Below are positions 6,063 to 64,000 of a stretch of DNA of 64,000 nt, piece after piece. The notes below the pieces were generated by a model, which did no database searches, was not told where the DNA came from, and saw only the letters and a list, made by a program, of their open reading frames with translations. The translations under genes were made by a program, and so were the position numbers. How positions within the stretch are numbered: the first letter of the stretch is position 1; each line of letters opens with the position of its first letter. Origin of the DNA: Circinella umbellata (lineage: Eukaryota; Mucoromycota; Mucoromycetes; Mucorales; Lichtheimiaceae); contig JAIWNF010000017.1 of NCBI GenBank assembly GCA_025093555.1, positions 310,001 through 374,000 of the forward strand, in the 5' to 3' direction.

Positions 6063-9718
<3,656 letters not shown>

Positions 9719-9824
9719 TTCCATTCTTTTCAATTTCATCTTCCTTTCCTTTCCTTCTGTAATATAATATATACAAAATAGCAAATTTATTATGATGCTC
9801 ATTTAAAAATAAAAATTTACATAG

Positions 9825-11094: not shown

Positions 11095-11304
11095 AATATT
11101 CAGTACTTATTTATTTGTTATTATTATTATTATAATAATAAAGGAGGGTAAAAAAAATGAGAGAGTAGAGACAAAAAAAAAATAAGGAGGAGAAAAGGTG
11201 TGTGTGTGGGGGGAGTGAACCACGAAAAAGATAAAAAAAAAAGGGGGGGAGTGAGAAGTGCAACAAAAAAAAAAAAACAAAGATAGATGAGTATTATTAT
11301 TATA

Positions 11305-35005: not shown

Positions 35006-35258
35006 TGTAAGATATGAGTCGGGATATAGAATATAGTAATAATATAGAAAAATAAGATACAATAATAATATTATATATAATGATTTATTTCGAATAAAAA
35101 CTGATGGTATTTATATATTTCTAATAATTATATTTCTTAGTAATTAATACGATAGCTTGGCATTTATAAGAATGTCTTGTTAATTCACTTTATATAAGAG
35201 TCTCTTATAACTTGTCATTATGTAAATAATGGTGGATTCTTATTGGTTGGATATTACA
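35006..35258 (-). repeat. 3' LTR of the gypsy element
   Basis: 253 bp, the downstream LTR in the element's sense. It matches 41104-41356 except at three positions. The pol stop codon overlaps its first bases. Confidence 0.95.
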
Positions 35259-36852
35259 TTATCCCCTTTTTCAAAAGCAGGTGCTTGTTGTACGGGCGCA
35301 TGTGTTTTATGTTGGCTGTTGTGGAAAATTGGTATTTTCCTTCTTGTTTCTTAATCTTGAATGAGGTTCCTTCTTTATTATTTTTTTCGAGAATTATATA
35401 AGGGCCTAACCAGCGTTCTTTTGGAAATGAGCCTTTCTCCATGTTTCTTCGCATTACTAGGTCACCAGGCTTATAATCGTATTTGGTATTTTTAGTTTTA
35501 TCGTAATATCGTTTTTGTCTTGTTTGTGCTTTCTTTATGTTTTCTAGTGCTTGACCATGGACGATAGGGATATGTGAGTTCAGATAATGCATCCAGGATT
35601 CCGTTTCATAATTCTTTGATTCAGGACACAGTTCATTTGGTAATGGAATGGTGGGTTTTCTTCCATACATTAACTCGAATGGTGTATACTTTGTGGAGCT
35701 TTGTCTTGCTGTATTATATGCAAACGTGACAAATGGAAGATATTCATCCCACTTGCTAGGATCCTTTTCAACATAGGCGGCTAGAGACGTCTTTATGCTT
35801 CTATTTAACCGCTCGCAGAGACCATCACTTTGTGCGAACTCTACTGAAGTACGTGATCTTGCAATACCAAGTCTTGCACATACAGGATTCATTGCATCTG
35901 ATATATAATTTGCACCATTATCCGTGATTAGTCTTGAGGGGGTACCATATTTCAATACGACTTCGAATAATAAAGCATTCGCAACGTGATCAGAATCGAA
36001 ACTTGGAAGCGCGACTGTAATACTCCATTTTGATAAATATTCAATAAACACTAAAAGATATTTATTTTTTCGTGTACTTTCTGGCAGAACAACGATATCA
36101 CTAGCCCATATATCTCCAACATATCGCGGCAAAATCGGTTTCATTGGTGCAGCCGTGGAAATAGTACTAATTTTGAATCTTTGACATACGTCGCAACCTT
36201 GAACCCAGGCTTTGATATCGTCTTTCAGTGTTGGCCACCAAGCCAATTCTTGTGCCTTCTCGATTGTTTTTTCAACACCAAAATGTCCTGCAGTCTTGTT
36301 ATTATGAGCGGCATCTAATATATTGTGGATCATTTTGCGAGGAAGGACCGGTCTTGTTGGTTTATTTTCTTGTTTGCGGAAAAGGAGTTCTTGATACCAT
36401 ATGAATGGAGCCTTGATTCCTTGTTGTAAAATGGATTTTATGAATGGATCTTCTTTTTGATACCGGCGAAAATTTTCGAACGTGAGTGCTTCAGAATCTT
36501 GATTATTTTGAAATTGTCGTGATAATGCATCTGGAGCAGCATTATCAACACCTTTTCGATGTACAACATTGAACTCGTATGCTTGAAGAGTGAGAATCCA
36601 TCGAGCTAGTCTTCCTTGTGGCATTTTGGTTGACAAAATCGATTTTAATGCAACATGATCCGTATGGATAGTCAAGGTGGCGCCATATATGTAACAATGG
36701 AAATATTGAATGGACCATACAATACTGAGGCATTCGAGTTCGGTTATGGAGTAATTTTTTTCAGCAGGAGTGAGTGATCGACTTGCGAAAGCGATTGGTC
36801 TACCATTTTGGATAAGGACGGCTCCAAGACCATAAATACTAGCATCCACATG
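35254..36852 (-). pseudogene. Gypsy pol, 3' part: RNase H and integrase
   Basis: About 531 residues from the RNase H start (DASIYGLGAVL) to the end of integrase. RNase H continues with ITELECLSIVWSIQYF and HTDHVALKSIL. The integrase zinc finger is HFGVEKT...CDVCQRF. Catalytic residues appear in DIWASDIVVL, LITDNGANY and the Glu of GLCERLNRS. A GPY/F-type module (RWLGPYIILEK) is near the end and there is no chromodomain. This reading frame is cut from its upstream half by the MITE at 36853. Confidence 0.9.
35259..35272 (-). other. Polypurine tract of the gypsy element
   Basis: In the element's sense this reads GAAAAAGGGGATAA directly before the 3' LTR, as expected for the plus-strand primer. 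Confidence 0.8.
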
Positions 36853-37854
36853 TAGGGATCTTAGTACAATCCGGATTTATAAACCGATCCGTTTTTCATA
36901 CGGATTGGATCGGATTTGGATTGTGTCTCAACGGATTCGGATCGGATTCAGATCGTAACTCTACAATCCAGATTGTAAACGGATTGAGATCTATGGATCC
37001 GTCGGATTTTTCTGATCCGTCATTATAATTATAGAGTAATGGATCAAAGTTTTAACAATGCTGTGGTAAGGTATATATATATATATTCAAATAAAGAAGA
37101 GAGTAAGTTTTTGTATATTATTATATACTTGAATAGAGCAGTTGAAAAGAAAAGTAGTAATGGCTTTAATATAGAAAAAAAAAATCTGAAAAGAAAGAAA
37201 CAAAAATTGAAGATTAAAAAGAGAGATTAATGAACTTAATTACTATTTTTATTGATCTAGTAATGATAAAGAGAATTATGAACTTTTATTTGGTTGTAAA
37301 CAGAAAAGGTAAACTTATACTCGCCCCCACAAAAAAAATCCACGTCATGTTATATTTCTACCACAAAAATTTATTTGTACTGCACCACCATAACTTTTTT
37401 TTTCCTACTATAACTTTCCCACTATAATTTTTCTTTTCCTATTGTAACTTCTTTTTTCCCATTATAACTTTTTTTCTACTAGAACTCATTTTCCCACTAT
37501 AACTTTTTATTACTACAATTCTTTTTTTATTATAACTTATTTATTTCCTATTATGTTTTTCAAACCAAAATAATAAAATCATCTAAAAATAATGCACCTC
37601 TGTTACCAATGTTTTACTGTTCTTAAACGATCTCAAACGACTACCATACACCATCTTGTAAAATACCTTTTCTCATGAAAAAATACTGTGACATCTACTA
37701 TATAGCCTAAATTTTCATCTAATTGATCCTTTTGCATTATGGATTACGGATTCAATCCGGATTTTTACGAAACGGATTCGGATTGCAATTTTCTAATCTG
37801 TGGACAATCCGGATTTCCGAAAATCCGATCCGGATCAGTCTACTAAGAACCCTA
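36853..37854. mobile_element. hAT-type MITE inside gypsy pol
   Basis: A 1002-bp insertion with an 8-bp target duplication TCCACATG (36845-36852 and 37855-37862). The ends are TAGGGATCTTAGTA and, in reverse, TAGGGTTCTTAGTA. Both ends are packed with GGATTCGGAT and GATCCGGAT words. An 8-bp duplication and a TAGGG-type terminus are hAT hallmarks. I see no transposase, so it is non-autonomous. It splits RNase H exactly after the codons for LHVD. Confidence 0.9.
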
Positions 37855-40394
37855 TCCACATGTAAGTCGTATGGTAATTGGGGGTCAGGGTATGCTAAAG
37901 TCGGTAATTTAGCAATGGCTTGTTTTAAGTTATCAAAAGCTTGTTGGCATTCTGGCGACCAGTGAAATCTTTTATCCTTGCGTAAGAGCTGATATAAGGG
38001 ATATCCCGTTTGACTTAGACTCTTTAAGAATTTATGATGAAAAGCACAAAAACCTAAAAATCTCTGGACTTCTTTTGTTGAGGACGGTGTCTTCCAGGTT
38101 AGAATTGCTTCGGTCTTTGTTGGGTCTGCTCGAATTCCTTGACCATTGACGAAAAAACCAAGGTATTTAACATCCTTTTTGAATAATTGGCACTTTTTTA
38201 TTGATATCTTGAGATTATAATTGTTGAGGCGGCATAATAAGGCATCCAATTGTTGCTGGTGTTCTTGCTCGGTTTTGCTATACAAGAGAACATCATCCAG
38301 GTAACATATTGTGGTTAGTAAATCTTGTAACACATAGGACATGCATGCTTGAAAAGAACCAGGGGCGTTACATAGGCCGTATACCATAGCATTAAATTCG
38401 TATAGTTTTCCATTTGCAACAAAGGCCGTTTTGCATTTGTCACTTTCCTTGATCTTGATATGCCAGTAACCACTTTTTAAATCAATGACTGAAAAGTATT
38501 TGGTTCCATGTAGTTTATCCAAAAGTTCATCGATTGTTGGTATAGGTTGTTTTGATTTTTTCGTAACGCGGTTGACTGCTCGTAGGTCAATAGCAAATCT
38601 CCAAGAGTTATCTGGTTTGCGAATAAGAACTATATTTGATCTCCATGGGCTAGTACTTGGTCGAATCACCTTCCGTGTTAGCATGTCATTTACTTCTTTT
38701 TGAATGATTTCGTTTTCGAGAGGTGAACGTCGATAGTCTTTTGAAACAACTGGTGCATGATCTTTGGTGTCAATCGGATGTTCGTATGGCAGATTTATTG
38801 TTGGTTGAATTGTTCCATAGACTGTAAGTTGTGGATATTTTTGTAATAATTGTTGTGCGGTGTCTTCGTGTGTTGCGGAATTTTGTTCGTCGATTTTAAA
38901 AATAGTGCAGTTCTTTGGTCTTAAACCAATATCTTCTAGTGTCATCCAATCCATTCCAAGAATTATATTTTCATTTTGTTTTTCCATGACATAAAGTGTA
39001 CAAGTTGTGTCAATGTTGTTTATTGTCAGCTGTAAAGTTACGGCTTCTGTTGTCAATTGAGTTGAATTGTTGCCATAGTGAATAACAGTGGGGCGACATG
39101 GTGTTGTTTCCATGCTGAGTTCTTTTACAAGATGTCTTCGGATGGAGCTAAGTGTAGGACCGGTATCAATGAAAGCTTTGGAAGACTGTTGGTGTGTTTT
39201 GTATTTTACTGGGACATGAAATCGTAATGAGTTGTTGTTATTTTCGTCCTGTTGATTACATATATTTTGCGAGTCGGTTTGTGGTAACATGTGTTGGAAT
39301 ATATCGATCCAGTCATCGTCTACTGGTGGTGCTGTTGTTTGAGCGTTTGATTTGGCATTATTGCGGCTATCATTAAATTTTTTCTTTCTACACTCTGCAA
39401 TTAGATGGCCTTGTTTTTTACAGTAGTGACATTTTCTCGTTTCTTTTTGATTGGTCTGATAATTATTATTATACGATCTGTTGTTATTAAAACGACTATT
39501 ATTGTTGTTGTGGTTATTTTGAAAGCGATTTTTATTATTATAACGGTTGTTTATATGTTGATAATGTTGTGCATTTTGTGTTGTTGTGGTGTTGTAATCA
39601 GGTGTCGGTGTGTGTTCTGTTGTTGTTGATATTTGTGTTGTTCCATGCGGAATTGCTGAATATGGTTGAAGTTTTAATCCAGCCCGTGATAAGTTGTATT
39701 CTACTTCGTTGCATATTTCGATAGCTTCTTGTAATGTTGTAGCGCCTCGCATATATATGGCTTCTTGGAGTTTTGGATGAACCCGATCGCAAAAGAAATC
39801 CAATTGTAGCGAGTCACTGTAGATTTCGGCACGAATAAGCAAATCTGTAATTTCAGGTGCAAACTTGCTCATAGGTGTTGTGTTTTGTCTTAACTTCTTC
39901 AGGTCAGCCAAGGCGTTTCTTGATGGTTGTGTACCACCACCAAAATGCATGAGAAAAATAGATTTGAACCGGTCAAAATTATTTTGTTGGTCTGGTCGTA
40001 AGGTGGAAAACCATTTAATGGCTGGTCCTTCTAGTGCAACATTTAGTTCATCGAGTTGATCTTCTGGAGTAAATTTAAGATATTCGCAAATGCGAATGTA
40101 TTTTTCTAACCAATGCTGAGCAGTGCTTGGGTCACCATTACTAAATGTAGGAATTTTTGTGCGACGGCAGCGTTCAGATATAATAGGTGATAAACGTGGA
40201 GTATTATTAATTTCTTGGCTTTCTTCAATTTGTGCAGTTGTTGTTGTAGGTTGGCATGAGCTTCGTTGGCGGTTTTGCGCAAGAGAGGCCTCGAGTTCAA
40301 GAATACGTTGATGCATTTCGTGAATTTGTTGATTTGTTGTTTTGTTGATAGTATTTGTATTAGGTGAGAGGGCATTTCGGACAAATGTAACCAA
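37855..40394 (-). pseudogene. Gypsy gag-pol, 5' part: gag, CCHC, protease, RT
   Basis: A long frame of about 845 element-derived residues. It carries a retrotransposon gag domain (WLEKYIRICEYL, GPAIKWFSTL), a CCHC knuckle (CHYCKKQGHLIAEC), an aspartic protease site (AFIDTGPTLSS), and reverse transcriptase with LRAVNRVT, GLCNAPGSFQ and the catalytic YLDD near 38295. It runs directly into the MITE border. Gag and pol share one frame, with no shift between them. Confidence 0.92.
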
Positions 40395-41074
40395 GGTAGG
40401 TTCTAATTGTAAATCTTGGCAAACTTCAGGAGTGGGCTATTCGGTGTCAGCAAGAAGGCTACGGAAATGTTCTGGATGCTGGTTGTATGCTGTATTGAAT
40501 TCATATGCCATTGCTTGTCTGTCTATTTGTAGTTGTTGATCTAATTCTGCAATATGCTGATCTACAGCTAATGCTTCTTGTTGTTGACTGAATATGACAG
40601 GTTCGAGCTGAGCGCGCTGGATAGGAGGAATAAAAGGTAAGGTATCAGTTATGGTCCGAATCCCTGTTAAGAGCTGGTCTCGTCTTTGTACATGTTCATT
40701 TCTGCCTTGATGTACGTATTGAACAAGGTCTTGATAGTTGTTTTTCAATCATTGATAATAGTGGTGAAGTTGATCCTCATCAAAAAAGTCAGGTTCGATG
40801 GACATCGGTGCAACACTAGGGCGAGGAGTAGCAGTGGCAGCAGCAACTGTGGCAGGATCACGCGGAGTACGCGGGGCTGGTCGTTGATATGCAGTAGCCT
40901 GAGTTGGGACCGAGACAGAAGCAACAGAATGAGGTCTCACATGGATGGTCTGAGTAGCCGGATTTACAAAAGCAGGGCCGTGTGAGTAGTAGTGTCAATA
41001 TCAGATACAGTATCCGAGATGGTTGGAACGGATGTATGATCAGGAATAGTAGCAGGAAGTTGTTCAGAAGACAT
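40395..41074 (-). pseudogene. Gypsy gag N-terminal part with stops and a frameshift
   Basis: The likely gag start is the ATG at 41074, 30 bases after the 5' LTR (MSSEQLPATIPDH). A frameshift near 40980 moves to the frame that continues downstream. Two in-frame stops follow, TGA near 40749 (after HHYYQ) and TAG near 40437 (after LLADTE). Protein-like sequence continues across both stops in the same frame, so they look like decay. Confidence 0.8.
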
Positions 41075-41087
41075 GATTGAGTTGATT

Positions 41088-41103
41088 TAGCTTCTCCACC
41101 AAA
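41088..41103 (-). other. Primer binding site of the gypsy element
   Basis: In the element's sense the bases directly after the 5' LTR read TTTGGTGGAGAAGC. The TGG that pairs with a tRNA CCA end is present. The tRNA species is not determined. Confidence 0.6.
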
Positions 41104-41356
41104 TGTAAGATATGAGTCGGGATATAGAATATAGTAATAATATAGAAAAATAAGATACAATAATAATATTATATATAATGATTTATTTCGAATAAAAACT
41201 GATGGTATTTATATATTTCTAATAATTATATTTCTTAGTAATTAATACAATAGCTTGGCATTTATAAGAATGTCTTGTTAATTCACTTTATATAAGAATC
41301 TCTTATAACTTGGCATTATGTAAATAATGGTGGATTCTTATTGGTTGGATATTACA
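41104..41356 (-). repeat. 5' LTR of the gypsy element
   Basis: 253 bp, upstream LTR in the element's sense, followed by the ACTAG target duplication at 41357-41361. Confidence 0.95.
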
Positions 41357-43998: not shown

Positions 43999-45763
43999 GA
44001 TAGATGTTGAAGGAAGGGAAAAAGAAAGTTAGTAAAACAAAATTAAGGGAGCGATATAAAAAAATAAATAAACACAAGGGTTGAAAAAAAAAAGATGTTA
44101 GTACTCATCTCAGTATATATTGTGGTAGTCTAAGTTACCTGTCTGTACTACAATTATTATAAATATGGTAAGAGCAAAAAAGTCTGTACCACTAGTAAAA
44201 AAAGATGGCCAAACCTTAGAATTTCTTTATGGTGAACAGATACAAAAATAAATTATTTTTGGTATCTAAATTAATTACCAAATGTATGCACATTTATTCA
44301 TAAAGAGGCAGTAAAGGAGGACATATGTGTCATAAAATAATAAGAGCAAATATAGAAAACAATAAACATGATCAACTATGTTCTCAATATCGTAAAATTC
44401 ATATTCTAAAGAAAAGGACAAAAAAAGAAATAACTTCTCTTATTTCTAGTAGTAATGAAAAAGATAAAAAAGATAAAAAAAAGATAAAGAAGATAAAGAA
44501 GATAAAACAAAGATTAAAAAGATTAAAAAAATAAAAATAAAAACATTTTATATTTGTAATGGAGGTGCATTAAATTTAGGAAAAATAATGAATAAATTAA
44601 TCAATTAAGTAATGTATAAATGAATATTTTTTGAGGCTATTATGTATTAAATTCAATAGAATTTAAATATGCCCCACTATGCCACTTTATAAATACTAAC
44701 AATAACTCCTCCTCTCTCTCTTTCTGTGAAATGTTAAAAGTTAATAACAAGTTAATTATTATTTTTTGTTATCTTAAATATTGTAAATATTATATTTCTG
44801 CATTTTCATATCTAAGATATCAGTATCTATATATCTCCATGTTAGTATTATATTCTCCTAAGATGTTGATGAAAAATTAACAATTTCTTTATTTGAGTAT
44901 ATTATTAATTCATATATTCTATATACTGTATATTTTATAAAATAATCCTTCTTCACTATAATTATCTTTTTTATATATTATTTTATCTTTATCTATTATA
45001 TATAGATTTATCTTGATGATATCCTTTTTATCACTAAATTTTATACAATAATCCATTTTTTATTTTATTTCTAATTTATTTTCAAATTTAAATTTAATAT
45101 TTTTAATCAAATAAAGAATAAATATTAATTATAATTATTTTTAAATGTGAAAGTCTTCAAATTAAATATTACTGTTTATAATACGTAACTATATTTAATA
45201 TGTAAAAAAAATACGACGGAATTATTATGAATATAAATCTTTAAAATATTAAAAATGATAATATGATAATTTTATATTTCTTCTTCCGGGAGAGCAGAGA
45301 AGAGAAGAGGAGTTATCCTCTTTTTTTTATAAAAATTGTTTTAGTTGTGATTGTGGTATTTATGGATATAAATTAACAGGAAAATGAGGTAAGTATAAAA
45401 ATGATGACAGAATAAATCTTGTGAGAATCTTTCAAGTGTTTTATTATATGAAAATAATATTCAGATAAAAAGATACATAATAATTATTTCTATTACAAGT
45501 TATATATATATATATATATATATGTTTTAAATGTGTATTTTCCTATATTTGTCGCTAATGTTATATGATGTTAAATGGTGTATTATGTGATCATGAATAA
45601 ATAAATTATGTTTGATTATTATATTTGTATATTGTCTATAAAGTGTTATTATGGTAGAATTATTAGTTTTGTATTTAGAAAGCAACCAATGTAAGATTAT
45701 TTTAGTGTTTTTTATATATAGTTTATACTGTATTTTAATTATCTGAGATGAAGGATTGACGTG
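43999..45763. other. AT-rich region left of the palindrome
   Basis: No gene supported. It contains a lysine-coding AAAGAT run (44455-44535) and a (TA)n run near 45500-45523. The short open frames are low-complexity. Confidence 0.45.
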
Positions 45764-46127
45764 TGCCATATGACAGTGATGTATATATAAAATTCATTGA
45801 ATTTTATCATCTCAAGATGAATAAACAGGATATTATATTTATAGTAACTTTATGGCATTTAAAATTTATTTTATAAACCAAAAAGATTATTAAAATTTAT
45901 ATATAAAATAACATTGTTTTCACTTTTATTTTTATTTATTATACTATATTATTACTATTCTTTATCAAAAATATTTACTGTAGCAATTAATTAAAATATC
46001 ATTTCTATAAAAATTGACTAAAAACAAAGAAAAAAAATTTTCATTATCGCTATGGTTACATACTTTTGATTACAAAATTGAATTTTGTATATAATTAAAA
46101 AACTGTTATGAAATATATGCTACCAAT

Positions 46128-47742
46128 ATGGAATCTGAGACTGAAATTATGGACGAATATACTAATAAAAATGATGAAAAAATAATTGAATATAGAAATC
46201 AACTAAAAAATGAGATTAATAATTTAGTAATTAATAAATGGTCTTTTTTATGTCAAGATTGGAAGAAAACACAAAATAAGTTTAAACATAGAACAGAATT
46301 AAAAAGTACTAAAAATATTAGAGAAATTAAAGATGAATTGTTAAATAAATTAGGTTATATCCCTGTATTCTTTTTTATTACAGTTTTATATACAAATAAA
46401 GAATACCCAGAACCTTATTTAGAAGTTGAAAAAGCATTGTTATTATTATATCAATTAATAAATGGGTTTACATCAAAAACTATAAAAAAATATATTCCAT
46501 CCTCTAGTTTTTATAATGTATATAAAGAATTTTGGATTAAAAATTATGAAAATTTAAATAAATATGTAGATTATTGTTTATTAAATATGTTTAGTAATAT
46601 AAAAATTAGATTATTATCAGCTCAAATTAAAATCCTAAAAACTTTAAACATATAAAATTAGCATTAGATGGTCACGATACAGCTATAGAATATGATAAAC
46701 CTAATATTTCAGTTCAAAAAAAATGGTCATATAAGTTTAAAACTTCTGGAATAAGAACTCAAGTATTAGGTGATATTAATGAAAATATAATAAGTGTATC
46801 AGATAGTGAATTATGTGGTATTAGTAGTGATGGAGGTATGTTTCTTAATATGAAAATATATAAAAAAATTAAAGAACAAGATTGTATTGCACTTGATGGT
46901 GGGTATACACTATTTATAAAACAATTTGAAAATTTTTGTAATAATAAAAATATTAAGTTAAATGATAAAATGTTTTTTATCCAATTCGTAAAGAAACAGG
47001 TATATCATTAAATGTACAAGAAGAACATTATAATAAGGTATTTGGAAGTTTTAGATCAATAGTAGACAACCAATTTAAAGATTTATATAATAAATTTAAG
47101 AGATTTTCCAATAATAACTCTATATTAAAAACTGATGATATAAAATATATTAATTTACAAATAAAAGTTTCATTTCTATTAAAAAATATACATAATTTTG
47201 TTAATAAATTTAATATTATAGAACAGGAACAACATAAAATTTGGATAAATGATAACTTTGATTTTCCTAATGAAATGAGATTAATAGATATAGTTTCTAC
47301 AAATCAAATGGAACAAATGAATAAAATAAAAGATTTAAATAAAATACAAATGGAATTAATAAATTTAGAAATAGGTAATGAAGAATTAAATAATGATAAT
47401 ACTATGTCAGTTGATGATGAAAGTGATAATGCAAATGATAATAATAATAATGTAGATGTTGATTTTCCTCAATATAAAAATGAATCTAGAAAAAGAAAAA
47501 AAAGGTCTAAAAATAAGAATAAAAATTTAAATATTTATGAATATAGAAATGTAAATAAAGATGAAAATATATTTGAAATAGAAAGTATAGTAGATCATAA
47601 AGTAGTGAATAAAAAATATGTATTTTATATTAAATGGAAAGGTTATCAATATGGTGATAATAGCTGGGTAAATGAAGATGACTTTAATGAAAAAGAAATA
47701 ATTATTGAGTATTTTAATAAGAAAAACATAATATATAATTAA
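46128..47742 (+). pseudogene. Chromodomain DDE transposase (PIF/Harbinger-like), left copy
   Basis: Three frames together read as one protein of about 535 residues. The N-terminal part (46128-46655) has YIPSSSFYNVYKEFWIKNYE. The core has LALDGHDTAIEYDKPN, SGIRTQVLGDINENIISVS, LDGGYTLFIKQFEN, then PIRKETGISLNVQEEHYNKV and FGSFRSIVDNQFKDLYNKF. The likely catalytic residues are the Asp of LDGHD, the Asp of LDGGY and a Glu of QEEHYN, as in DDE_Tnp_4 proteins. The C-terminus is a chromodomain (ESIVDHKVVN, YVFYIKWKGYQYGDNSWV). It is broken at an A5 run near 46637 and a T6 run near 46975. Both breaks are shared by the right copy. Confidence 0.85.
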
Positions 47743-48440
47743 CTATTAAAACATATTAAAATAAAAAAAAATTACTTTATAAAATAGTATATTTATTGTT
47801 AATATGAAAATTAAATTATAATTGCTGATTATTCCTCCAACTGAGTATTATCTTTATGAACCAAGCTCCTACTTCAAAATTCAGGTGTCTATTATATGTA
47901 GGAATTGGAAGACAACAAACTAGTTTCCTTTTTTAGATGCTAATTTTTTCTGCTTGAATTCAGCAACCACTTTACTAAGAATATAAATAATATGCATAGT
48001 CGTTATAATAGAATTATAACAATCTATTTTCTTTATCTTTGACCTTGCACAATTATTTGTGCCTTATTATACTACATACTTTTTGTTCTAAATGAAATAT
48101 ACTTATAAACATTCTGTAATGCTGAAAACAACAGAGAGATACAGCATACAATATCTCTTTAGTACAAAACAGCATGAGTTTTTTTCTCACTTTTTTAACA
48201 TTATATTATAGCTGTTATAATATTAAAGATATTTACAAAGGTTTGTTATATATATATATAAAAGTAACAAAAAGGAAAAAAAAAGAAAGAGATAGAGAGA
48301 CAAAGGGAGAGAGTATTAAAATAATTCTATAATATAAAGCGTTCTGTTAGTACTAGAGTATGGAATGCTGTGTAATTATTATGAATATACGTATCTTATC
48401 ATTTTAAACCAAAACATTACTTACAAATTGGCATTGCTTC
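47743..48440. other. Left-arm spacer without a gene
   Basis: Lies between the transposase and the repeat-family fragment, mirrored at about 52461-53157. It contains a GA-rich run (48270-48315) and no coding trace that I can support. Confidence 0.45.
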
Positions 48441-49372
48441 TGTTACTTCTGATTAGTCTTGACAAATGGTTCAGGAGGGTTTGGAATTTTGGTATGTTTG
48501 TCATTTGATGGGAATGGCCATGTCCCTCAGGTCTTGGGTTGGGGTGTCATAACAGAAGTAATAGTGAATGATTGTTTAATGTTGGCAATTTTCTTAGTTG
48601 CAAACTATAGTAGTATGTACATATTATAGTATATTAGTAGAAGACTACAAAGCATCAAATATGTAGATGGAAAAAAAGTCTTATATACCCAAAAATTATA
48701 AAGAAGATTAACAACATTCCGTAAATTCATAAGTTCGAAAGCATTTTGAGGAAACATTCCTTGAGCTTCTTGAGCTCCAACATAAAGTCCATCAGCAGCA
48801 AGGCACAATGAATAGAGAAAGACAGAGTTGCCTATAAAAAACATATGAGTCAAATGAATATATATATAATATCACAGAACCATGTAAAGCTGTATATTAC
48901 CACAAAGCTGTAGGGCAGGAATGGCTACTGGTTCATCATATTTTGTAGTAGCAAGTAATTGATCAAGAATCAACTTGGATTCTACTAATAACTTAATCTT
49001 ATTGGTGTCGCTTTTGCTAACTGGCGTTTCTCTCTTGGCTACTTCACAATTAGCATGATCATCTTCACAATGTTTTCCTGCCTTTGTGTCCATTATAAGC
49101 CTTAGATCAACCTTAAACCTAAAGCTGTTTTATCACATGTTACATTGCCTATGCTTTCGCCCTTATAAAGCATAAAAACTAATATATATATATACACATA
49201 ACACATTAATGCAAATCTTTACCATTTGCAACAAAGATTACTTCTTCTGAACACAGCTTCAATGAGACCTCCCCATTCCTTAATAAGGCATTCTGCCTCT
49301 GTTGTATCTGGGCCATTTGCATTTTGAAATAAATATAGGCGGAATTCTAGTATTTCCAAACTATGGAACAAA
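48441..49372 (-). pseudogene. Repeat-family gene fragment, copy 3
   Basis: The 3' exons of the PD-(D/E)XK-like repeat family, including the frame for KIKLLVESKLILDQLL and AADGLYVGAQEAQGMFPQN. It is truncated where the foldback MITE begins at 49383. The exon before KLLVESK is frameshifted (GESIGNVTCDKTA then stop). It is a mirror of copy 4. Confidence 0.8.
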
Positions 49373-49382
49373 TTTATTTATA

Positions 49383-50055
49383 GGGACTAATCATTATCAA
49401 TTGATAATATAAAATTTAATCAATTGTATATTATCTTGAAGATTTATTATTTATATCTAATAAACATAATTATTAAAAAAGTAGAACTTTTCTTGATATT
49501 ATGATTATTAATATTATAAAATGAATATATATTTATAATGAAAAATATAAAAATTATTTATTTTTATGATTTTTCTAAATATTTTAGATATATTTAATGA
49601 TCAGATGATCATATGAGTTTTAAATAATATACCTTCAAATATATTTGGGGCATATTTATATTGAGGGCACAACATTTATAGCTTGAACACCCTTATTCAA
49701 CTATAAATAAAGTAAATCTACTAAACATTCCAAAGGTTATACCTTTTTCATTTTGAGAATTATAGTTATTTACAATAATCAAATTCTAAATATAATATGT
49801 TTTAGAATATTAATTATAATTAATTTAGAAATATTTATATTTATAAATATTTTGGTCAAAATTAAATGGAATCTATAAAATAGATGGAATGCTTATTAGA
49901 TTTACTTTATTTATATTTGAACTATAAAATAATAATTATAATATCAAGAAAAGCTCCACTTTTGATAATTATGTTTATTAAATATAAATAATAAACCTTT
50001 AAGATAATATAAAATCAATTAATTTTTATATTATCAATTGATAATGATTAGTCCC
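49383..50055. mobile_element. Foldback MITE, left copy
   Basis: A 673-bp AT-rich element whose halves fold on each other. It begins GGGACTAATCATTATCAATT and ends with the reverse complement of that sequence. The inverted similarity extends over more than 120 bases, including CTTTTCTTGATATTAT. A second internal pair shares ATAAATAAAGTAAATCTA. There is no coding capacity. A mirror copy is at 50846-51518. Confidence 0.75.
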
Positions 50056-50356
50056 CTTGATCAAGTAATAAAAATATATATTAAATTGTTAGCCATTTAA
50101 ACATTAATTTTATAATCTAAATATATTTTCTTAATACATATAAAAATGTAAAAATTTATTAAATTTTTCTTCATCTGAGTTTGAAATAATATACTGCAAA
50201 AATATATTTTGAGGTATATTTTAATTTTCATTTCCACATTTTTTGATTTATTGATATAAATATAGAAGATTTAGATGTTTTTACAACTATATCTTCAATA
50301 ACAATAACAATAACAACAACAATTAAACCTAACGGTTTTCTTGATAAATAATATCA

Positions 50357-50544
50357 CTTATATAAATAAGTTCATTATTATATTAAACATTGTTTGACTA
50401 AAAGATAAAAAATAATAAATATATTATATATGATTAATTTTCTACCTTTAAAATACAATTGTATTTATTAAGTTAGAATAGTTATAATATTTATTTTATA
50501 AATATTATAGTTCTTAATTTAAGAATAATGAAAAACGTTAGTTT
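50357..50544. other. Central spacer of the giant palindrome
   Basis: 188 bp of AT-rich DNA between the arms, with a possible weak internal hairpin around TTTATTTTATAAATATTATAG. Sequence identity between arms drops abruptly at its borders. Confidence 0.8.
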
Positions 50545-50845
50545 TGATATTATTTATCGGGAAAACTGTTAGGTTTAATTGTTGTTGTTATTGTTATTGT
50601 TATTGAAGATATAGTTGTAAAAACATCTAAATCTTCTATATTTATATCAATAAATCAAAAAATGTGGAAATGAAAATTAAAATATACCTCAAAATATATT
50701 TTTGCAGTATATTATTTCAAACTCAGATGAAGAAAAATTTAATAAATTTTTACATTTTTATATGTATTAAGAAAATATATTTAGATTATAAAATTAATGT
50801 TTAAATGGCTAACAATTTAATATATATTTTTATTACTTGATCAAG

Positions 50846-51518
50846 GGGACTAATCATTATCAATTGATAATATAAAAATTAATTGATTTTATATTATCTT
50901 AAAGGTTTATTATTTATATTTAATAAACATAATTATCAAAAGTGGAGCTTTTCTTGATATTATAATTATTATTTTATAGTTCAAATATAAATAAAGTAAA
51001 TCTAATAAGCATTCCATCTATTTTATAGATTCCATTTAATTTTGACCAAAATATTTATAAATATAAATATTTCTAAATTAATTATAATTAATATTCTAAA
51101 ACATATTATATTTAGAATTTGATTATTGTAAATAACTATAATTCTCAAAATGAAAAAGGTATAACCTTTGGAATGTTTAGTAGATTTACTTTATTTATAG
51201 TTGAATAAGGGTGTTCAAGCTATAAATGTTGTGCCCTCAATATAAATATGCCCCAAATATATTTGAAGGTATATTATTTAAAACTCATATGATCATCTGA
51301 TCATTAAATATATCTAAAATATTTAGAAAAATCATAAAAATAAATAATTTTTATATTTTTCATTATAAATATATATTCATTTTATAATATTAATAATCAT
51401 AATATCAAGAAAAGTTCTACTTTTTTAATAATTATGTTTATTAGATATAAATAATAAATCTTCAAGATAATATACAATTGATTAAATTTTATATTATCAA
51501 TTGATAATGATTAGTCCC
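50846..51518. mobile_element. Foldback MITE, right copy
   Basis: Mirror image of 49383-50055 within the right arm, with the same terminal and internal inverted repeats. Confidence 0.75.
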
Positions 51519-51528
51519 TATAAATAAA

Positions 51529-52460
51529 TTTGTTCCATAGTTTGGAAATACTAGAATTCCGCCTATATTTATTTCAAAATGCAAATGGCCCAGATACAAC
51601 AGAGGCAGAATGCCTTATTAAGGAATGGGGAGGTCTCATTGAAGCTGTGTTCAGAAGAAGTAATCTTTGTTGCAAATGGTAAAGATTTGCATTAATGTGT
51701 TATGTGTATATATATATATTAGTTTTTATGCTTTATAAGGGCGAAAGCATAGGCAATGTAACATGTGATAAAACAGCTTTAGGTTTAAGGTTGATCTAAG
51801 GCTTATAATGGACACAAAGGCAGGAAAACATTGTGAAGATGATCATGCTAATTGTGAAGTAGCCAAGAGAGAAACGCCAGTTAGCAAAAGCGACACCAAT
51901 AAGATTAAGTTATTAGTAGAATCCAAGTTGATTCTTGATCAATTACTTGCTACTACAAAATATGATGAACCAGTAGCCATTCCTGCCCTACAGCTTTGTG
52001 GTAATATACAGCTTTACATGGTTCTGTGATATTATATATATATTCATTTGACTCATATGTTTTTTATAGGCAACTCTGTCTTTCTCTATTCATTGTGCCT
52101 TGCTGCTGATGGACTTTATGTTGGAGCTCAAGAAGCTCAAGGAATGTTTCCTCAAAATGCTTTCGAACTTATGAATTTACGGAATGTTGTTAATCTTCTT
52201 TATAATTTTTGGGTATATAAGACTTTTTTCCATCTACATATTTGATGCTTTGTAGTCTTCTACTAATATACTATAATATGTACATACTACTATAGTTTGC
52301 AACTAAGAAAATTGCCAACATTAAACAATCATTCACTATTACTTCTGTTATGACACCCCAACCCAAGACCTGAGGGACATGGCCATTCCCATCAAATGAC
52401 AAACATACCAAAATTCCAAACCCTCCTGAACCATTTGTCAAGACTAATCAGAAGTAACAG
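51529..52460 (+). pseudogene. Repeat-family gene fragment, copy 4
   Basis: Mirror of copy 3. Exons are readable for EFRLYLFQNANGPDTTEAE-like sequence, KLLVESKLILDQLL, VFLYSLCLAADGLYVGAQEA and a terminal exon ending about 52456. Relative to copy 1, many CG dinucleotides are replaced by TG or CA (for example TTCGTTGCGCC versus TTCATTGTGCC). Confidence 0.8.
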
Positions 52461-53157
52461 AAGCAATGCCAATTTGTAAGTAATGTTTTGGTTTAAAATG
52501 ATAAGATACGTATATTCATAATAATTACACAGCATTCCATACTCTAGTACTAACAGAACGCTTTATATTATAGAATTATTTTAATACTCTCTCCCTTTGT
52601 CTCTCTATCTCTTTCTTTTTTTTTCCTTTTTGTTACTTTTATATATATATATAACAAACCTTTGTAAATATCTTTAATATTATAACAGCTATAATATAAT
52701 GTTAAAAAAGTGAGAAAAAAACTCATGCTGTTTTGTACTAAAGAGATATTGTATGCTGTATCTCTCTGTTGTTTTCAGCATTACAGAATGTTTATAAGTA
52801 TATTTCATTTAGAACAAAAAGTATGTAGTATAATAAGGCACAAATAATTGTGCAAGGTCAAAGATAAAGAAAATAGATTGTTATAATTCTATTATAACGA
52901 CTATGCATATTATTTATATTCTTAGTAAAGTGGTTGCTGAATTCAAGCAGAAAAAATTAGCATCTAAAAAAGGAAACTAGTTTGTTGTCTTCCAATTCCT
53001 ACATATAATAGACACCTGAATTTTGAAGTAGGAGCTTGGTTCATAAAGATAATACTCAGTTGGAGGAATAATCAGCAATTATAATTTAATTTTCATATTA
53101 ACAATAAATATACTATTTTATAAAGTAATTTTTTTTTATTTTAATATGTTTTAATAG
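52461..53157. other. Right-arm spacer without a gene
   Basis: Mirror of 47743-48440, with a CT-rich run near 52585-52625. No coding trace. Confidence 0.45.
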
Positions 53158-54772
53158 TTAATTATATATTATGTTTTTCTTATTAAAATACTCAATAATT
53201 ATTTCTTTTTCATTAAAGTCATCTTCATTTACCCAGCTATTATCACCATATTGATAACCTTTCCATTTAATATAAAATACATATTTTTTATTCACTACTT
53301 TATGATCTACTATACTTTCTATTTCAAATATATTTTCATCTTTATTTACATTTCTATATTCATAAATATTTAAATTTTTATTCTTATTTTTAGACCTTTT
53401 TTTTCTTTTTCTAGATTCATTTTTATATTGAGGAAAATCAACATCTACATTATTATTATTATCATTTGCATTATCACTTTCATCATCAACTGACATAGTA
53501 TTATCATTATTTAATTCTTCATTACCTATTTCTAAATTTATTAATTCCATTTGTATTTTATTTAAATCTTTTATTTTATTCATTTGTTCCATTTGATTTG
53601 TAGAAACTATATCTATTAATCTCATTTCATTAGGAAAATCAAAGTTATCATTTATCCAAATTTTATGTTGTTCCTGTTCTATAATATTAAATTTATTAAC
53701 AAAATTATGTATATTTTTTAATAGAAATGAAACTTTTATTTGTAAATTAATATATTTTATATCATCAGTTTTTAATATAGAGTTATTATTGGAAAATCTC
53801 TTAAATTTATTATATAAATCTTTAAATTGGTTGTCTACTATTGATCTAAAACTTCCAAATACCTTATTATAATGTTCTTCTTGTACATTTAATGATATAC
53901 CTGTTTCTTTACGAATTGGATAAAAAACATTTTATCATTTAACTTAATATTTTTATTATTACAAAAATTTTCAAATTGTTTTATAAATAGTGTATACCCA
54001 CCATCAAGTGCAATACAATCTTGTTCTTTAATTTTTTTATATATTTTCATATTAAGAAACATACCTCCATCACTACTAATACCACATAATTCACTATCTG
54101 ATACACTTATTATATTTTCATTAATATCACCTAATACTTGAGTTCTTATTCCAGAAGTTTTAAACTTATATGACCATTTTTTTTGAACTGAAATATTAGG
54201 TTTATCATATTCTATAGCTGTATCGTGACCATCTAATGCTAATTTTATATGTTTAAAGTTTTTAGGATTTTAATTTGAGCTGATAATAATCTAATTTTTA
54301 TATTACTAAACATATTTAATAAACAATAATCTACATATTTATTTAAATTTTCATAATTTTTAATCCAAAATTCTTTATATACATTATAAAAACTAGAGGA
54401 TGGAATATATTTTTTTATAGTTTTTGATGTAAACCCATTTATTAATTGATATAATAATAACAATGCTTTTTCAACTTCTAAATAAGGTTCTGGGTATTCT
54501 TTATTTGTATATAAAACTGTAATAAAAAAGAATACAGGGATATAACCTAATTTATTTAACAATTCATCTTTAATTTCTCTAATATTTTTAGTACTTTTTA
54601 ATTCTGTTCTATGTTTAAACTTATTTTGTGTTTTCTTCCAATCTTGACATAAAAAAGACCATTTATTAATTACTAAATTATTAATCTCATTTTTTAGTTG
54701 ATTTCTATATTCAATTATTTTTTCATCATTTTTATTAGTATATTCGTCCATAATTTCAGTCTCAGATTCCAT
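53158..54772 (-). pseudogene. Chromodomain DDE transposase (PIF/Harbinger-like), right copy
   Basis: Reverse-complement twin of 46128-47742, with the same two frameshifts at the same homopolymers. The frame can be read 13 codons further upstream to 54811. Those codons come from the end of the Tc1-like transposon that landed just in front of it, so I take 54772 as the ancestral start. Confidence 0.85.
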
Positions 54773-54809
54773 ATTGGTAGCATATATTTCATACTGTATT
54801 TCCAGCATC

Positions 54810-54960
54810 AATTGGTCACTTTACCGAAAAAATTGGTCACTTTTCTGAATGCCAATTGGTCACTTTTCTGAATGCCAATTGATCGCTTTTCTGTGAACCA
54901 ATTGGTCACTTTTCTGAAAATCAATTGATCAATTTTCTGAACGCCAATTGGTCACTCCTT
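54810..54960. repeat. Iterated subterminal motif, left end of Tc1-like element
   Basis: Seven units of the type CAATTGGTCACTTTTCTGAA, about 20-24 bases apart, with variants such as CAATTGATCGCTTTTCTG. Likely transposase binding sites. The right end (56398-56535) has a matching inverted set. Confidence 0.85.
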
Positions 54961-55032
54961 AAAATAAATTAAAAGTGTGTGTTTACTTAGCGAGAAACTT
55001 ACAAAAAAAACAGTATGAGAAACAAATGGCAA

Positions 55033-56349
55033 TTAAATGGGTTCTTTATTTAAGCACTTATCGAATAAGTTCACGGAATGTTTAATACAGTTTTGAAGAT
55101 GTTGAAGTGGAACTGCTTCGCAAGACTCAACTATTCTGCCAGTCAGAGTTTCTGTGTCCTTTAACGCATGACGTTTAACCTTGGACTTAACAATGGACCA
55201 AAAGTCTTCAATAGGGTTAAGTTCTGGTGAATAAGAAGGAAGATAAACTGGAATATAACCGCGCTTTTCGATCAAAGGGTTGATCATACTAGGAACGTGT
55301 ATAGGAGCATTATCCATAACAATATGAAATCCTTGCATTTCTGGAAACGTGTCTATAATATCCATTGTGTCAATGATAAAATGCATATAATGCGCGCCTG
55401 TAGTTCCTTTTGGCGTTGATAACTTATCGCTAGGTGCCTTACGCTTGGTTGCTGCAACCACTTTTCTTCTCTTCACATTTCCAGGCTCTCTCATGGACAC
55501 ATTTACGACTGCTATAGAAGAAATAGCACCCAACACTGTATGTGACACAGCCTTTCCTGAGGGAGTTTCTACAACAGCAGGTTCACCACGTATTGACCAA
55601 GCTCTTTCGCGGGTCATATTGATGTCAAATCCTGACTCATCTAAAAACACACAATTCTGAAGGTAAACCATCCCTTTCTGTAGCCACTCCTTCACCCAAA
55701 CAGCCCGTTTCTCAATCACAGCAGTGCTATTTCTTGCAGTAGGATGCCTAGAGATTACTTTGATGGAAAGGTTGCATTCATTTTTCATAAATTCCGCTAC
55801 CCTGGATTTTTTTATCTCGAGATTTTCAAAGTTTTGTGTCAGTTCTTTGACGGCATCCTCGATAGTAGCCCTTTTGTTTTCATCGAAAAACTTCACCAAA
55901 CGATCTTTGTGTCTATCATCTAATTGGCTTACTGGACGAGAGGGAACTAGATTTGTCAACTTGTAAGGCACATATTCTTCAGGGTTCTGCTGATATTTTT
56001 GCTTCCATTTTCGTGCAGTATGTGGGTTGACATTTGCAGCCTCCGCAGCTTGCTTGTTTTTCATGCCTTTTTCGAAAACAAAATAAAGATACAACAATCT
56101 ATCTTTTTCAGTATAAACATTATACTCGGTATCTCTTTCTTTTCTAACTGATGCTTCCTTCATTCTAACATCGGGAACTTCAATCTCGAGTAATTCTGAA
56201 TATGTATTGTTTTTAACAAGCTTCTTGAGATCAGTTATTTTCTTTAGACGGAAAGATGGAGATTCGTCGTATGCTGTCGCTTCGTTACCCTTATCATCAA
56301 AGATGTTACCTCTTCCATCTTCAGAATAAAAAGTTATGTTAGAATCCAT
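55033..56349 (-). CDS. Tc1-like DD34E transposase, intact
   Basis: An uninterrupted frame of 438 residues. The N-terminal half holds a helix-turn-helix (KNKQAAEAANVNPHTARKWK) that would bind the ends. The DDE_3 catalytic domain has Asp in FLDESGFDINM, Asp in IVMDNAPIH and Glu in YSPELNPIEDFW. I count 34 residues between the second Asp and the Glu, the Tc1 spacing. The protein catalyses cut-and-paste into TA sites. A basic patch KRRKVVAATKRK lies between the first two acidic residues. Its CpG content is visibly higher than that of the surrounding arm, fitting a recent arrival. Complete TIRs and frame suggest it could be autonomous. Confidence 0.95.
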   Translation of the reverse strand: MDSNITFYSEDGRGNIFDDKGNEATAYDESPSFRLKKITDLKKLVKNNTYSELLEIEVPDVRMKEASVRKERDTEYNVYTEKDRLLYLYFVFEKGMKNKQAAEAANVNPHTARKWKQKYQQNPEEYVPYKLTNLVPSRPVSQLDDRHKDRLVKFFDENKRATIEDAVKELTQNFENLEIKKSRVAEFMKNECNLSIKVISRHPTARNSTAVIEKRAVWVKEWLQKGMVYLQNCVFLDESGFDINMTRERAWSIRGEPAVVETPSGKAVSHTVLGAISSIAVVNVSMREPGNVKRRKVVAATKRKAPSDKLSTPKGTTGAHYMHFIIDTMDIIDTFPEMQGFHIVMDNAPIHVPSMINPLIEKRGYIPVYLPSYSPELNPIEDFWSIVKSKVKRHALKDTETLTGRIVESCEAVPLQHLQNCIKHSVNLFDKCLNKEPI

Positions 56350-56397
56350 TATGAGTTAATTGAGTAAAAAGCTATGATGAGAAGTTGACACGATCAA

Positions 56398-56535
56398 TTT
56401 ATTTTAAGGGGTGACCAATTGGTTTTCAGAAAAGGGATCAATTTATTTTCAGAAAAGTGACCAATTGGCGTTCAGAAAAATGACCAATTGGCATTCAGAA
56501 AAGTGACCAATTTTTTCGGTAAAGTGACCAATTGA
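56398..56535. repeat. Iterated subterminal motif, right end of Tc1-like element
   Basis: About six inverted units of the type TTCAGAAAAGTGACCAATTG, mirroring the left end. One unit is degenerate (GGGATCAATTTATTTTCAG). Confidence 0.8.
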
Positions 56536-57002
56536 CGCTGGAAATACAGTAACAGTTTTTTAATTATATACAAAATTCAATTTTGTAATCAAAAGTATGT
56601 AACCATAGCAATAATGAAATTTTTTTTTTTTTGTTTTTAGTCAATTTTTATAGAAATGATATTTTAATTAATTGCTACAGTAAATATTTTTGATAAAGAA
56701 TAGTAATAATATAGTATAATAAATAAAAATAAAAGTGAAAACAATGTTATTTTATATATAAATTTTAATAATCTTTTTGGTTTATAAAATAAATTTTAAA
56801 TGCCATAAAGTTACTATAAATATAATATCCTGTTTATTCATCTTGAGATGATAAAATTCAATGAATTTTATATATACATCACTGTCATATGGCATACTGT
56901 CATATAGATGGGAAAATAAGTAAGTAAGGTAAGTTAAATAAAAATGAATAGAAATACATAACAAAGTAGAAGTCTTATGAGAATCAATTAGGTCAACATC
57001 TC

Positions 57003-57318
57003 ATGAACAATGTTCAATTACATTCAGAAAAAATGGGGGGAATTAAGGATAGATGCTTTTGCTGCACACCACAACTACCAACTACCAATATACTGGGCAG
57101 GGACACCAGATCCAGCAGCCACAGCAATAGATGCCATGAGTCAAATATGGTTACTAAAGGGGATGTATTTATACCCACCATGGAAACTAATACCTCAAGT
57201 TCTAAAAAAATTTCAAAAACACAAGATAAAAAGAACAGTTCTGGTAACACTATTGTGGCTCAGCCAATTTTGGTTTACAATAATTCTACGAATGAAACAT
57301 ATATTGTTTTTTTCCTAA
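57003..57318 (+). pseudogene. DIRS-like retroelement remnant: RNase H part
   Basis: The frame from 57010 reads RIDAFAAHHNYQLPIYWAGT, then DPAATAIDAMSQIW and LYPPWKLIPQVLKKFQ, ending in LSQFWFTIIL. This is the pattern of RNase H in DIRS-type elements: FA-x-H-N-x-QLP, DP-x-A-x-x-IDA, PPW-x-LI-x-x-VL. Upstream, where reverse transcriptase should lie, is the palindrome arm, so the element is truncated at its 5' side. A small MITE follows at once. Confidence 0.75.
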
Positions 57319-57519
57319 AGATTCGCGGCCAAGTTATTTTTCACTTTGCGTCCCCAGTGATTTTACGTTTGCGCTTGATTATTTTCAATTTTGCGCTGTT
57401 TATAGTACTAATATACAAGGATTTCCGCAAAGTTGAAAATAATCAGGGGCAAATGTAAAATTACAGCATACACAAAGTGAAAAATAATTTGGCTGCGAAT
57501 CTTTAGGAAAAAAACAATA
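57302..57519. mobile_element. Short MITE inside the DIRS-like remnant
   Basis: A 218-bp near-complete inverted repeat. It begins TATTGTTTTTTTCCTAAAGA and ends with its reverse complement. Inner words pair too (TTATTTTTCACTTTG with CAAAGTGAAAAATAA; GATTATTTTCAA with TTGAAAATAATC). A TA at each end suggests a Tc1/mariner-type origin. It separates RNase H from the recombinase. Confidence 0.85.
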
Positions 57520-57529
57520 GATCCTGCAA

Positions 57530-61689: not shown

Positions 61690-62245
61690 TTCCATATACT
61701 GCGATCACGAGTGAATACATCATTGAAAAAAGTAACCATTATTATTGATAAACGCGTTTTTGGTGGATGGGAATGAATAACGGGTTTTCACTCCTGTTTC
61801 GTCAATATCTCCTTCACGGTATAAAGGTACCTTGGTTTATCTATCAGTGATAAATTATACAATATTAATCATAACTATGACAGCTCTACTCTGATAATAG
61901 TAATCTGCACTTGAGAACTATCACACCGGCATAATGTACCTATGTGAAAGTGTTTTATATAAAGTTGTCATATCGAATTAAAACTTTTTAAAAGTGTAAA
62001 AGCTATAGTAATGAAACAGTCCATGTCAAAATAAGATTATATTACGACATGACTGTATCGAAGAACCTTTTTATTAAAGGAACAATAAAATACAAAACGG
62101 TCTAAGAAAGAGATCATGTGTCCAATCGGGAACATGATCCGATTTTTTTTTTTCATATTTTTTTATTTGTTCATCTTTTTCTCATACAAAAATAGGATCG
62201 TAATGCTACTGTAAGTATAGTCAAAAAAAAGGTTTATGATCAGTC

Positions 62246-64000
62246 ATGATTCTTACTTCTTTACCAAAAAATTATACTAGTCGAGCTGGGAAAGATCCCC
62301 AGAACAACAATACAGAAGTTGGTAAACTCCATTCATGGCGATTGAAAATGAAAGAGTATAAATATATTTTAACCTGGTTAAAAACGTGTACCGTCACCGC
62401 TCGCTATAACGATATTCGATATAACGATATTTCGATATAACGATAGGGTTTTGGGGTCCAAGACGGATTAAGCAGGGAAATATCACTAACTTTCTATAGT
62501 GATATCCGATAAGGTTCCAGCAAAAATATCGTTATATCGAGCGAACAAAGAATATAGTTACATTTTCGAAAAGTAAACAATACGTAGTAGTTGCTGGACA
62601 TTTTTTAATTTTATTTGTCAAGAGTTTAATGATCTGAACATTAAATTTATCTTAAACCGTTCCTTATGACAATCCAGCTTTGCTTTTCGTTCACTGTGGG
62701 AACCCAACCCACCACCCGCTATCCGACATGGCTTTATAAAGAATAAGCAGTTTTTTGGCTCTTAGTAAGTACGCGCATTTTTTCCCTATAGGCCATCAGC
62801 ATTAATTATATGTGCTGAGCTGGTTCTAATTCAATTAGAACTAATACGAAAAGACATATTTAATAAAAAGAAACTATACAAAGAGAAAAAGCAATCGCCA
62901 TATTATTATAGGTTATTTACAGTATGAACAATATAGTATTCTAGAGCGTTCTTCTTTTTGCAAGACATATCGATACCAATAAGGCCAAGTACATATGGAT
63001 AGGGTTTTACCCGACCATTATAGCTCAGATCAAGAATTCGTTATAGCGATAATTCGATATAACGATGCCCTTTTAGTCTCACGGGGTATATCGTTATAGC
63101 GAGCGGTGACGGTACAAAAAAAGAAGAGTGTCAAGGACGAAGAACAAAAAGGAGAATATATACTGGTGATGATGGAGAAGAAGAAAATGTAAATAATAGT
63201 TTAGTTTCCAAGTTTTTATAACAATTCTTATTTTAATATTTACTCTATTGCTATTATTAATAGGGGGTTCAAAAACCTGGTTTTCGTAAAGCCAAAGAGA
63301 TAGAAACAGACCTTTCTTTAGGTATTGTAATAAAAGAAGCAGCTTTTAAAAAGCGTAAGACTTATCATCAACTAAGTCATAATGAAAAATGCATCGTAAA
63401 GTATGTATTAGCGTGTTGTACATATTGTTTGTCCACCTTATATCCAATCCTACATATTTATCCAAAGCTAATACGTATGTACCTTATTGTTTTAATATAT
63501 AGATTGGGTATGAACTTAATAACTGATATTACAAAATCAGAGAGAATTCAAAGCTTTCAAAAAAGTCTCTTTCATCCTCGAGATTGGAGAACCGTTCAAA
63601 AACGTTACAAAGTCATGTTTGAAAAAATTGACATGTTTACTGATTTAAAAAAAAAAGCATTTCAGAAATTGAAAAAGTATTGAATTGCTATCCATATTGT
63701 TGCTTCATTTATTTATATTTTTACGTAGATTTTATTTGATATTAAATACTAACCCAATACTACGTATTATGGAATCTCTTAGATGGCATTGAAAGATATT
63801 GGGAAAGCCCGGTTCGCAGCATCAAAAGATGAAAGAAAAGCAAAATCAGGTGTTGATAAAGATGTTTTTGCTATTTATTATAAAGCGTAAGTTTAAAACT
63901 CTTAAACAGTATTGTTAAAATTAGTTTACTGTTGCTAAATAGATAAATTTATTTCATAGTTTGGAAACGCTAGAGTTCCACCCGTATTTATTTCAAAATG
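62246..64000 (+). pseudogene. Repeat-family gene, copy 2, split by a MITE and truncated by the window
   Basis: The exons read TSRAGKDPQNNNTEVGKLHS, then VQKPGFRKAKEIETDLSLGI, KEAAFKKRKTYHQLSHNEK, FHPRDWRTVQKRYKVMFEKI and DKDVFAIYYKALETLEFHPY. Introns use GT-AG ends in frame. The first exon is interrupted after WLKTC by the MITE at 62391. Apart from that insertion the frame is intact as far as it can be followed. Confidence 0.6.
62391..63112. mobile_element. Pogo/Tigger-like MITE in repeat-family copy 2
   Basis: 722 bp, flanked by TA on both sides, with terminal inverted repeats beginning CCGTCACCGCTCGCTATAAC and matching for at least 24 bases. Subterminal GATATAACGATA and CGTTATATCGAGCG words repeat inside. 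The uninterrupted site in copy 1 (ACGTGTCCAAAAAAAG) confirms the borders. No transposase. Confidence 0.9.

Follow-up and report, generated by a model that had tools for sequence, protein, structure and literature searches.

A recent inverted duplication of transposon-rich DNA in Circinella umbellata, probably the scar of a fold-back event

In a 64,000-nucleotide window of the Circinella umbellata genome (C79:310001-374000; C numbers denote contigs), about 4.6 kb of transposon-rich DNA forms a genuine inverted duplication of recent origin. The work covered this window and its assembly, one genome of 50.8 Mb in 210 contigs. Self-BLAST aligned two arms, 45757-50356 and 50545-56902, as mirror images around a 188-bp spacer, and so bore out the original prediction of an inverted repeat with 4.6-kb arms and a 188-bp spacer; the extent given there, 45764 to 56894, fell slightly short at both ends, as the alignments reach 45757 and 56902. 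The palindrome totals about 11 kb, is made of transposon remnants, and is interstitial, lying 356-367 kb into an 818-kb contig. With moderate confidence, we read it as the scar of a fold-back inverted duplication, of a kind that recurs in this genome. The notable point is the recurrence of such palindromes in one natural genome, together with their legible anatomy. The features of the window palindrome are, in window coordinates:

45352-45775, plus strand: solo LTR at the left outer border, TG...CA, flanked on either side by GTGAT and overlapping the arm alignment by its last 19 bp
45757-50356, plus strand: left palindrome arm (about 4.6 kb), in native order with the left flank
46128-47742, plus strand: left copy of a broken transposase gene in three frames, DDE_Tnp_4-like with a C-terminal chromodomain
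48459-49381, minus strand: part of a locally repeated gene-like sequence that recurs at 32498-33429 (90%); this part is mirrored at 51520-52441
49383-50055, no strand assigned: nested TIR element of the left arm, with TIRs of about 136 bp (89%) and termini GGGACTAATC, mirrored at 50846-51518
50118-50356, plus strand: left half of the seed inverted repeat, a long-TIR element with relatives at C142:291770-292529 and in TIRs at C168
50357-50544, no strand assigned: spacer, 188 bp, 13% GC
50545-50783, minus strand: right half of the seed inverted repeat, matching the left half at 236 of 239 positions
50545-56902, minus strand: right palindrome arm, interrupted by an insertion at 54794-56549
53158-54772, minus strand: right copy of the broken transposase gene, identical over the aligned arm
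54794-56549, minus strand: Tc1/mariner-like DDE_3 transposon, absent from the left arm, flanked by a TA duplication and with an ORF at 55033-56349 (438 aa)
56883-56897, minus strand: LTR-end remnant at the right outer border, 15 bp, 14 of which match the end of the left-border LTR
56898-56994, no strand assigned: tentative second LTR-like repeat, adjoining the right-arm LTR remnant on its outer side

The two arms differ at only 9 places in about 4600 aligned bases. In self-BLAST the inner stretch (46107-50356 against 54793-50545) was identical at 4246 of 4250 positions with 1 gap, and the outer stretch (45757-46108 against 56902-56550) at 348 of 353, again with 1 gap. The single-base T-run difference noticed earlier is the gap of the inner stretch: on the left-arm strand an A-run differs by one base, 1685 bases away from the inner end. 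The diverged inner borders noticed with it come down to 3 substitutions, at bases 15, 16 and 23 counted from that end. Two of the differences in the outer 353 bases sit at the extreme border and the 3 others within 20 bp of each other. For a 4.2-kb inverted match at 99.9%, a test against chance is superfluous. The DNA at 50100-50800 folded into a better hairpin than 20 of 20 shuffles, a restatement of the palindrome. Near-identical inverted arms around a short non-palindromic spacer are what a fold-back inverted duplication would show.

The right arm alone carries an insertion of 1756 bp, a DDE_3 (Tc1/mariner/IS630-type) element by its Pfam match (E 1.4e-25), and at the corresponding point the left arm reads the uninterrupted CTGTTATGAAA, an empty site. 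Close copies of the element occur on contigs C57 and C11 (99%) and C203 (95%). This element is the transposon noticed earlier in only one arm, and its confinement to the right arm is the best internal argument against an artefact. Because one arm bears an insertion with its target duplication, the spacer edges and the outer flanks differ, and further palindromes are present in the assembly, we agree with the earlier view that the arms are physically separate. The Tc1/mariner-like TIRs consist of about six 23-bp tandem units per end, at 54809-54956 and 56392-56534.

The arms are transposon-rich, with a GC content of 16-30% per kb. Pfam recognised the arm transposase by its chromodomain (Chromo, E 2.6e-11) and by DDE_Tnp_4 (E 0.0031), the latter match falling below the curated cut-off in the window copy and above it in relatives on contigs C198 and C130. 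The family has 137 homologues; named ones among the 120 listed include Circinella minor, Mucor hiemalis, Lichtheimia and Rhizopus, as well as Gamsiella and Haplosporangium. No Rfam family and no tRNA was found in the 64-kb window. A gene-like stretch is locally duplicated at 31166-33432 and 61870-64000 (93-96%), and one piece of it also lies in the arms (90%).

The centre of the palindrome, a 666-bp stretch at 50118-50783, is kin to a small long-TIR element. Its relative at C142:291770-292529 has inner (spacer) edges identical in position, and an alignment of the left halves from the two loci contains gaps and, outside them, 198 matches in 222 positions. Related 113-bp TIRs, 89% alike and about 2.8 kb apart, occur on contig C168, and contig C201 holds one half of the centre element plus part of the spacer. 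These homologues on C142 and C168 indicate that the inverted repeat is old, while the identity of its halves in the window arose recently. Within the spacer itself, inverted repeats do not stand out from shuffled sequence (131 of 200 shuffles were as good), so the seed in the window is argued from the homologues; a pre-existing inverted repeat is visible in them and not in the spacer. All 3 differences between the seed halves fall within the innermost 23 bp, as expected if priming took place inside the repeat and copying proceeded outward. Three random differences over 239 positions would all land there with p = 0.0008, a value to be read knowing that the 23 was picked after seeing the data. 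The C142 halves are near-identical too, gap-free over the first 353 aligned positions and with one substitution near the inner edge, which offers arm-to-arm conversion as an alternative source of identity in the window. Fold-back or long-TIR MITEs are a recognised element class. The window centre element, like those on C142 and C168, is of that kind; unlike such elements, most of the 4.6-kb arms lie outside it.

Both outer borders meet dispersed repeats. The left one is an LTR by its copy pattern: 28 of its 46 matches end at query positions 776-779, and three same-orientation pairs stand 5.4-5.5 kb apart (C200, C138 and C38). On contig C25 the arm end is preceded by the identical 18 bases without the LTR. 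From this LTR-free locus and the GTGAT flanking the LTR, it follows that the left flank and left arm are in native order. The right arm end carries GTGAT as at the left border. The second LTR-like repeat beyond it occurs at 33 other places, with one same-orientation pair 5.4 kb apart on C142, and is followed by a fragment whose ORFs presumably resemble a DIRS-type element; in Pfam one of these ORFs had a sub-threshold match to phage Dam (E 5.7e-05) and another had none. The right border may mark where the copied strand was joined, or may result from a later LTR insertion and a deletion that trimmed the right arm. Inspection by eye of the printed borders, for the window palindrome and for the C198 palindrome described below, showed no target duplication flanking the unit as a whole. 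Further out, 57299-57522 is a self-palindromic MITE, 81% identical to its own complement and with many genomic matches.

Large palindromes had been described as rare in fungal chromosomes, a generalisation that fails for this genome: at least three further palindromes at about 99.9% were found, on contigs C130, C198 and C60, together with two inverted pairs at about 96%, on C129 and C46. On C130, 494145-501459 mirrors 506077-513391 (7315 bp, 6 differences) and 503771-504747 mirrors 505106-506081 (977 bp, 1 difference). We read these stretches as a single palindrome; a 2.3-kb chromodomain-transposase element, flanked by TCATA at either end, interrupts its left arm. The C130 arms continue past the first border, since 513381-513979 matches C130:491443-492041 reversed at 98%, and a further insertion of about 2.1 kb precedes this continuation in the left arm. 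The remaining 38 non-self matches to that query fall entirely within its dispersed repeat of about 460 bp. The 2.3-kb element, C130:501460-503770, has an open 500-codon DDE_Tnp_4-chromodomain frame, an opposite 171-codon frame and ends GGGGAC.../...AGTCC, and is possibly a complete member of that family.

The C198 palindrome pairs 613-6101 with 6378-11866 (5489 bp), and its 3 differences all lie within 670 bp of the outer end. Each of its outer borders coincides with the end of a dispersed repeat. Of the 46 matches at the left border, 16 (one being the palindrome's second arm) begin precisely at it and another 7 begin no more than 5 bp away; 3 extend 25 bp outward of it, and 3 continue right across at 83%. 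A further 6, longer matches fit the flank and stop about 9 bp or less inside the border. Left flank and repeat also occur together at other loci. At the right border, 31 of 42 matches (again counting the other arm) end within 2 bp and 4 run 12-13 bp further. The border repeat ends in ...GTGTCA and has one same-orientation pair 5.9 kb apart on C79, from which it may be an LTR. On C60, 1734 bp of arm were compared and held 1 difference. Spacers measure 358 bp (C130), 276 bp (C198) and 294 bp (C60); inverted repeats within them were equalled by 0 of 200 shuffles for C198, 0 of 200 for C130 and a borderline 8 of 200 for C60. Over the stretches compared, the four large palindromes show an arm difference of about 0.05-0.2%. 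The two less identical pairs were 96.0% alike over the 580 bp compared on C129 and 95.6% over the 250 bp compared at C46:646700/651690. Substitutions between the arms of the four palindromes comprise 14 transitions and 1 transversion, those at borders and inner edges included; this excess could hint at cytosine deamination in repeats. An ORF searched from the C198 arm had 5 homologues, three of them named, all as hypothetical proteins from Dichotomocladium or Rhizopus. A virus-like origin of the C198 arm ORFs was dropped: the three ORFs tested had no Pfam match, and an ORF other than that with the 5 homologues had PDB matches only at E 0.024-0.74 (coronavirus nsp3/protease chains in the top six), which were treated as chance.

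These palindromes were found with queries from three transposon families, which gave 47, 48 and 21 matches. Pairs were required to lie on the same contig, at most 25 kb apart, to share at least half of the query range and to reach a score ratio of at least 0.85, and the best candidates were scored. Near-equal-scoring pairs numbered 10 inverted against 0 direct; once the score-ratio limit was lifted, the printed pairs were 21 inverted and 10 direct. Eight of the ten inverted pairs were compared, the two others being C32:8961/11204 and C46:475429/485327. Six proved 95.6-99.9% alike (compared whole or in part), and those on C128 and C133 were not close copies. Since transposases served as queries, the transposase content of the palindromes proves nothing. 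Several pairs were rejected as such palindromes: C128 at 72-76%; C133, whose gene gave no close alignment and has a 166-bp piece at 93% beside it; and the transposase pairs at C46:499500-509499 and on C189, which are paralogues at 74-75%. Contig C189 also has inverted repeats of 270-405 bp at 93-96%.

For the window, we propose that a break or stalled fork to the right of the long-TIR element would have yielded a single strand in which the two TIR halves annealed, leaving the spacer as the loop. The 3' end would have come to rest 23 or more bases away from the inner edge and from there copied the left arm outward into the LTR end; the copied end would then have been joined to other LTR-type sequence. 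In the available text of PMC7999016, a resected end beside a short palindrome base-pairs within itself and serves as a primer for synthesis. For yeast, the part of PMC10164571 at hand describes how inverted repeats, whether spaced or divergent, can fold back within single-stranded DNA to give inverted duplications, with breakpoints near Ty/delta, PAU or tRNA genes, healing by break-induced replication, a terminal deletion in 12 of 12 sequenced clones and, usually, translocations. As far as these portions of the two papers go, the window shares with the yeast and tumour cases a central inverted repeat, a loop-sized spacer and near-perfect arms, and perhaps also, with the yeast cases, an outer end at dispersed repeats, the fit being firmer at the centre than at the right end. 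At 4.6 kb, the window arms are shorter than the roughly 24 or 100 kb of the yeast clones described there (PMC10164571), and the window palindrome is interstitial in a natural genome, whereas the cases in those excerpts come from selected mutants or tumours and the yeast clones are terminally deleted.

A less probable course, which we nonetheless take seriously, is a template switch at the replication fork with no double-strand break, the nascent strand jumping to the opposite strand at the small inverted repeat and later returning, which would give an identical inverted duplication with nothing lost. The interstitial position, the short spacer and the junction in repeat sequence all agree with it, and ODIRA models are in print (PMC4689423, PMC10766183); anatomy alone cannot separate it from break-primed fold-back, and the accessible text on ODIRA deals with interstitial inverted triplications, whereas the window shows two copies. 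Sex-chromosome palindromes have large, highly identical inverted arms. An old palindrome kept identical by gene conversion, as in those, appears unlikely to us. It would account for the fact that C142 and the window share a centre and spacer edges and yet each has near-identical arms, and for the uniformly low divergence of all four large palindromes, but one-arm insertions persist (1.76 kb in the window; 2.3 kb and about 2.1 kb on C130), and the pairs at about 96% on C129 and C46 mean that some do diverge. Compared with gene-converted sex-chromosome palindromes (PMC7023750), the likeness lies in large, highly identical inverted arms and the difference in the window arms being transposon remnants.

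Among the origins suggested by the original prediction, template switching and breakage with fold-back fit best, and the composite fold-back transposon poorly, because no target duplication showed by eye around the whole unit and the solo LTR explains the left outer edge. A palindrome mobile as a single element with giant terminal inverted repeats would suit the transposase genes that the palindromes carry and the two C198 borders on a repeat end, but that presence was ascertained by the queries, and the arms of different palindromes differ in sequence except for the transposase family. With no target duplication seen by eye at the window or C198, and no second near-identical copy of the window arm among the matches listed (common words skipped), we rejected transposition of the palindrome as one unit and hold the idea highly improbable. 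Equally hard to credit is an assembly artefact or a concatenation of two haplotypes. The C198 and C60 palindromes do lie near contig ends, and C90 and C23 share a near-identical stretch; against this, the window and C130 palindromes sit deep inside contigs with differing flanks, one-arm insertions have target duplications, spacer edges differ, and the same match list (common words skipped) held no other near-identical arm copy. The stretch shared by C90 and C23, 7.2 kb at 99.8%, is a segmental duplicate or an unmerged haplotype. A centromere reading, considered because S. pombe-like centromeres have inverted repeats, was dropped, as C79 carries the gene family at three places.

Giant palindromes have, to our knowledge, been described chiefly in engineered yeast, in tumours and on sex chromosomes, and our literature search found no paper on giant palindromes in Mucorales among the matches listed. 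It is conceivable, though we rate it as improbable, that the palindromes act genome-wide as hairpin-RNA loci whose long dsRNA would feed RNAi and silence their own transposon family, much like Mu killer. The window transposase copies converge on the spacer, which is the arrangement required for read-through; the C130 and C198 copies point outward. The part of PMC3440606 available on Mu killer of maize describes an inverted duplication with transposase sequence and a proposed hairpin RNA of about 4 kb. The window inverted duplication likewise holds transposase sequence, but unlike Mu killer as presented there (PMC3440606), its transposase gene is already broken. Mucor RNAi acts on transposons according to the available text of PMC11943222. 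If the hairpin reading were true, chromosome scars would become transposon-control loci. The genome has several recent fungal palindromes in which a centre element, one-arm insertions and repeat-bound ends are still readable, and so lends itself to studying, in nature, how inverted duplications arise, terminate and persist, and also whether inverted transposon pairs feed RNAi.

Elsewhere in the window, the host gene at 26651-27328 has 31 homologues, the best named one from Fennellomyces sp. T-0311 (77%); 19 of the 20 named ones belong to what we take to be Mucorales, the exception being a weak match to Hyaloraphidium. The stretch 35006-41356 is a Ty3-type element with ORFs at 35254-36876 and 37752-40436 (minus strand) and direct repeats of 253 bp at its ends, 98.8% alike, and looks like a young LTR retrotransposon.
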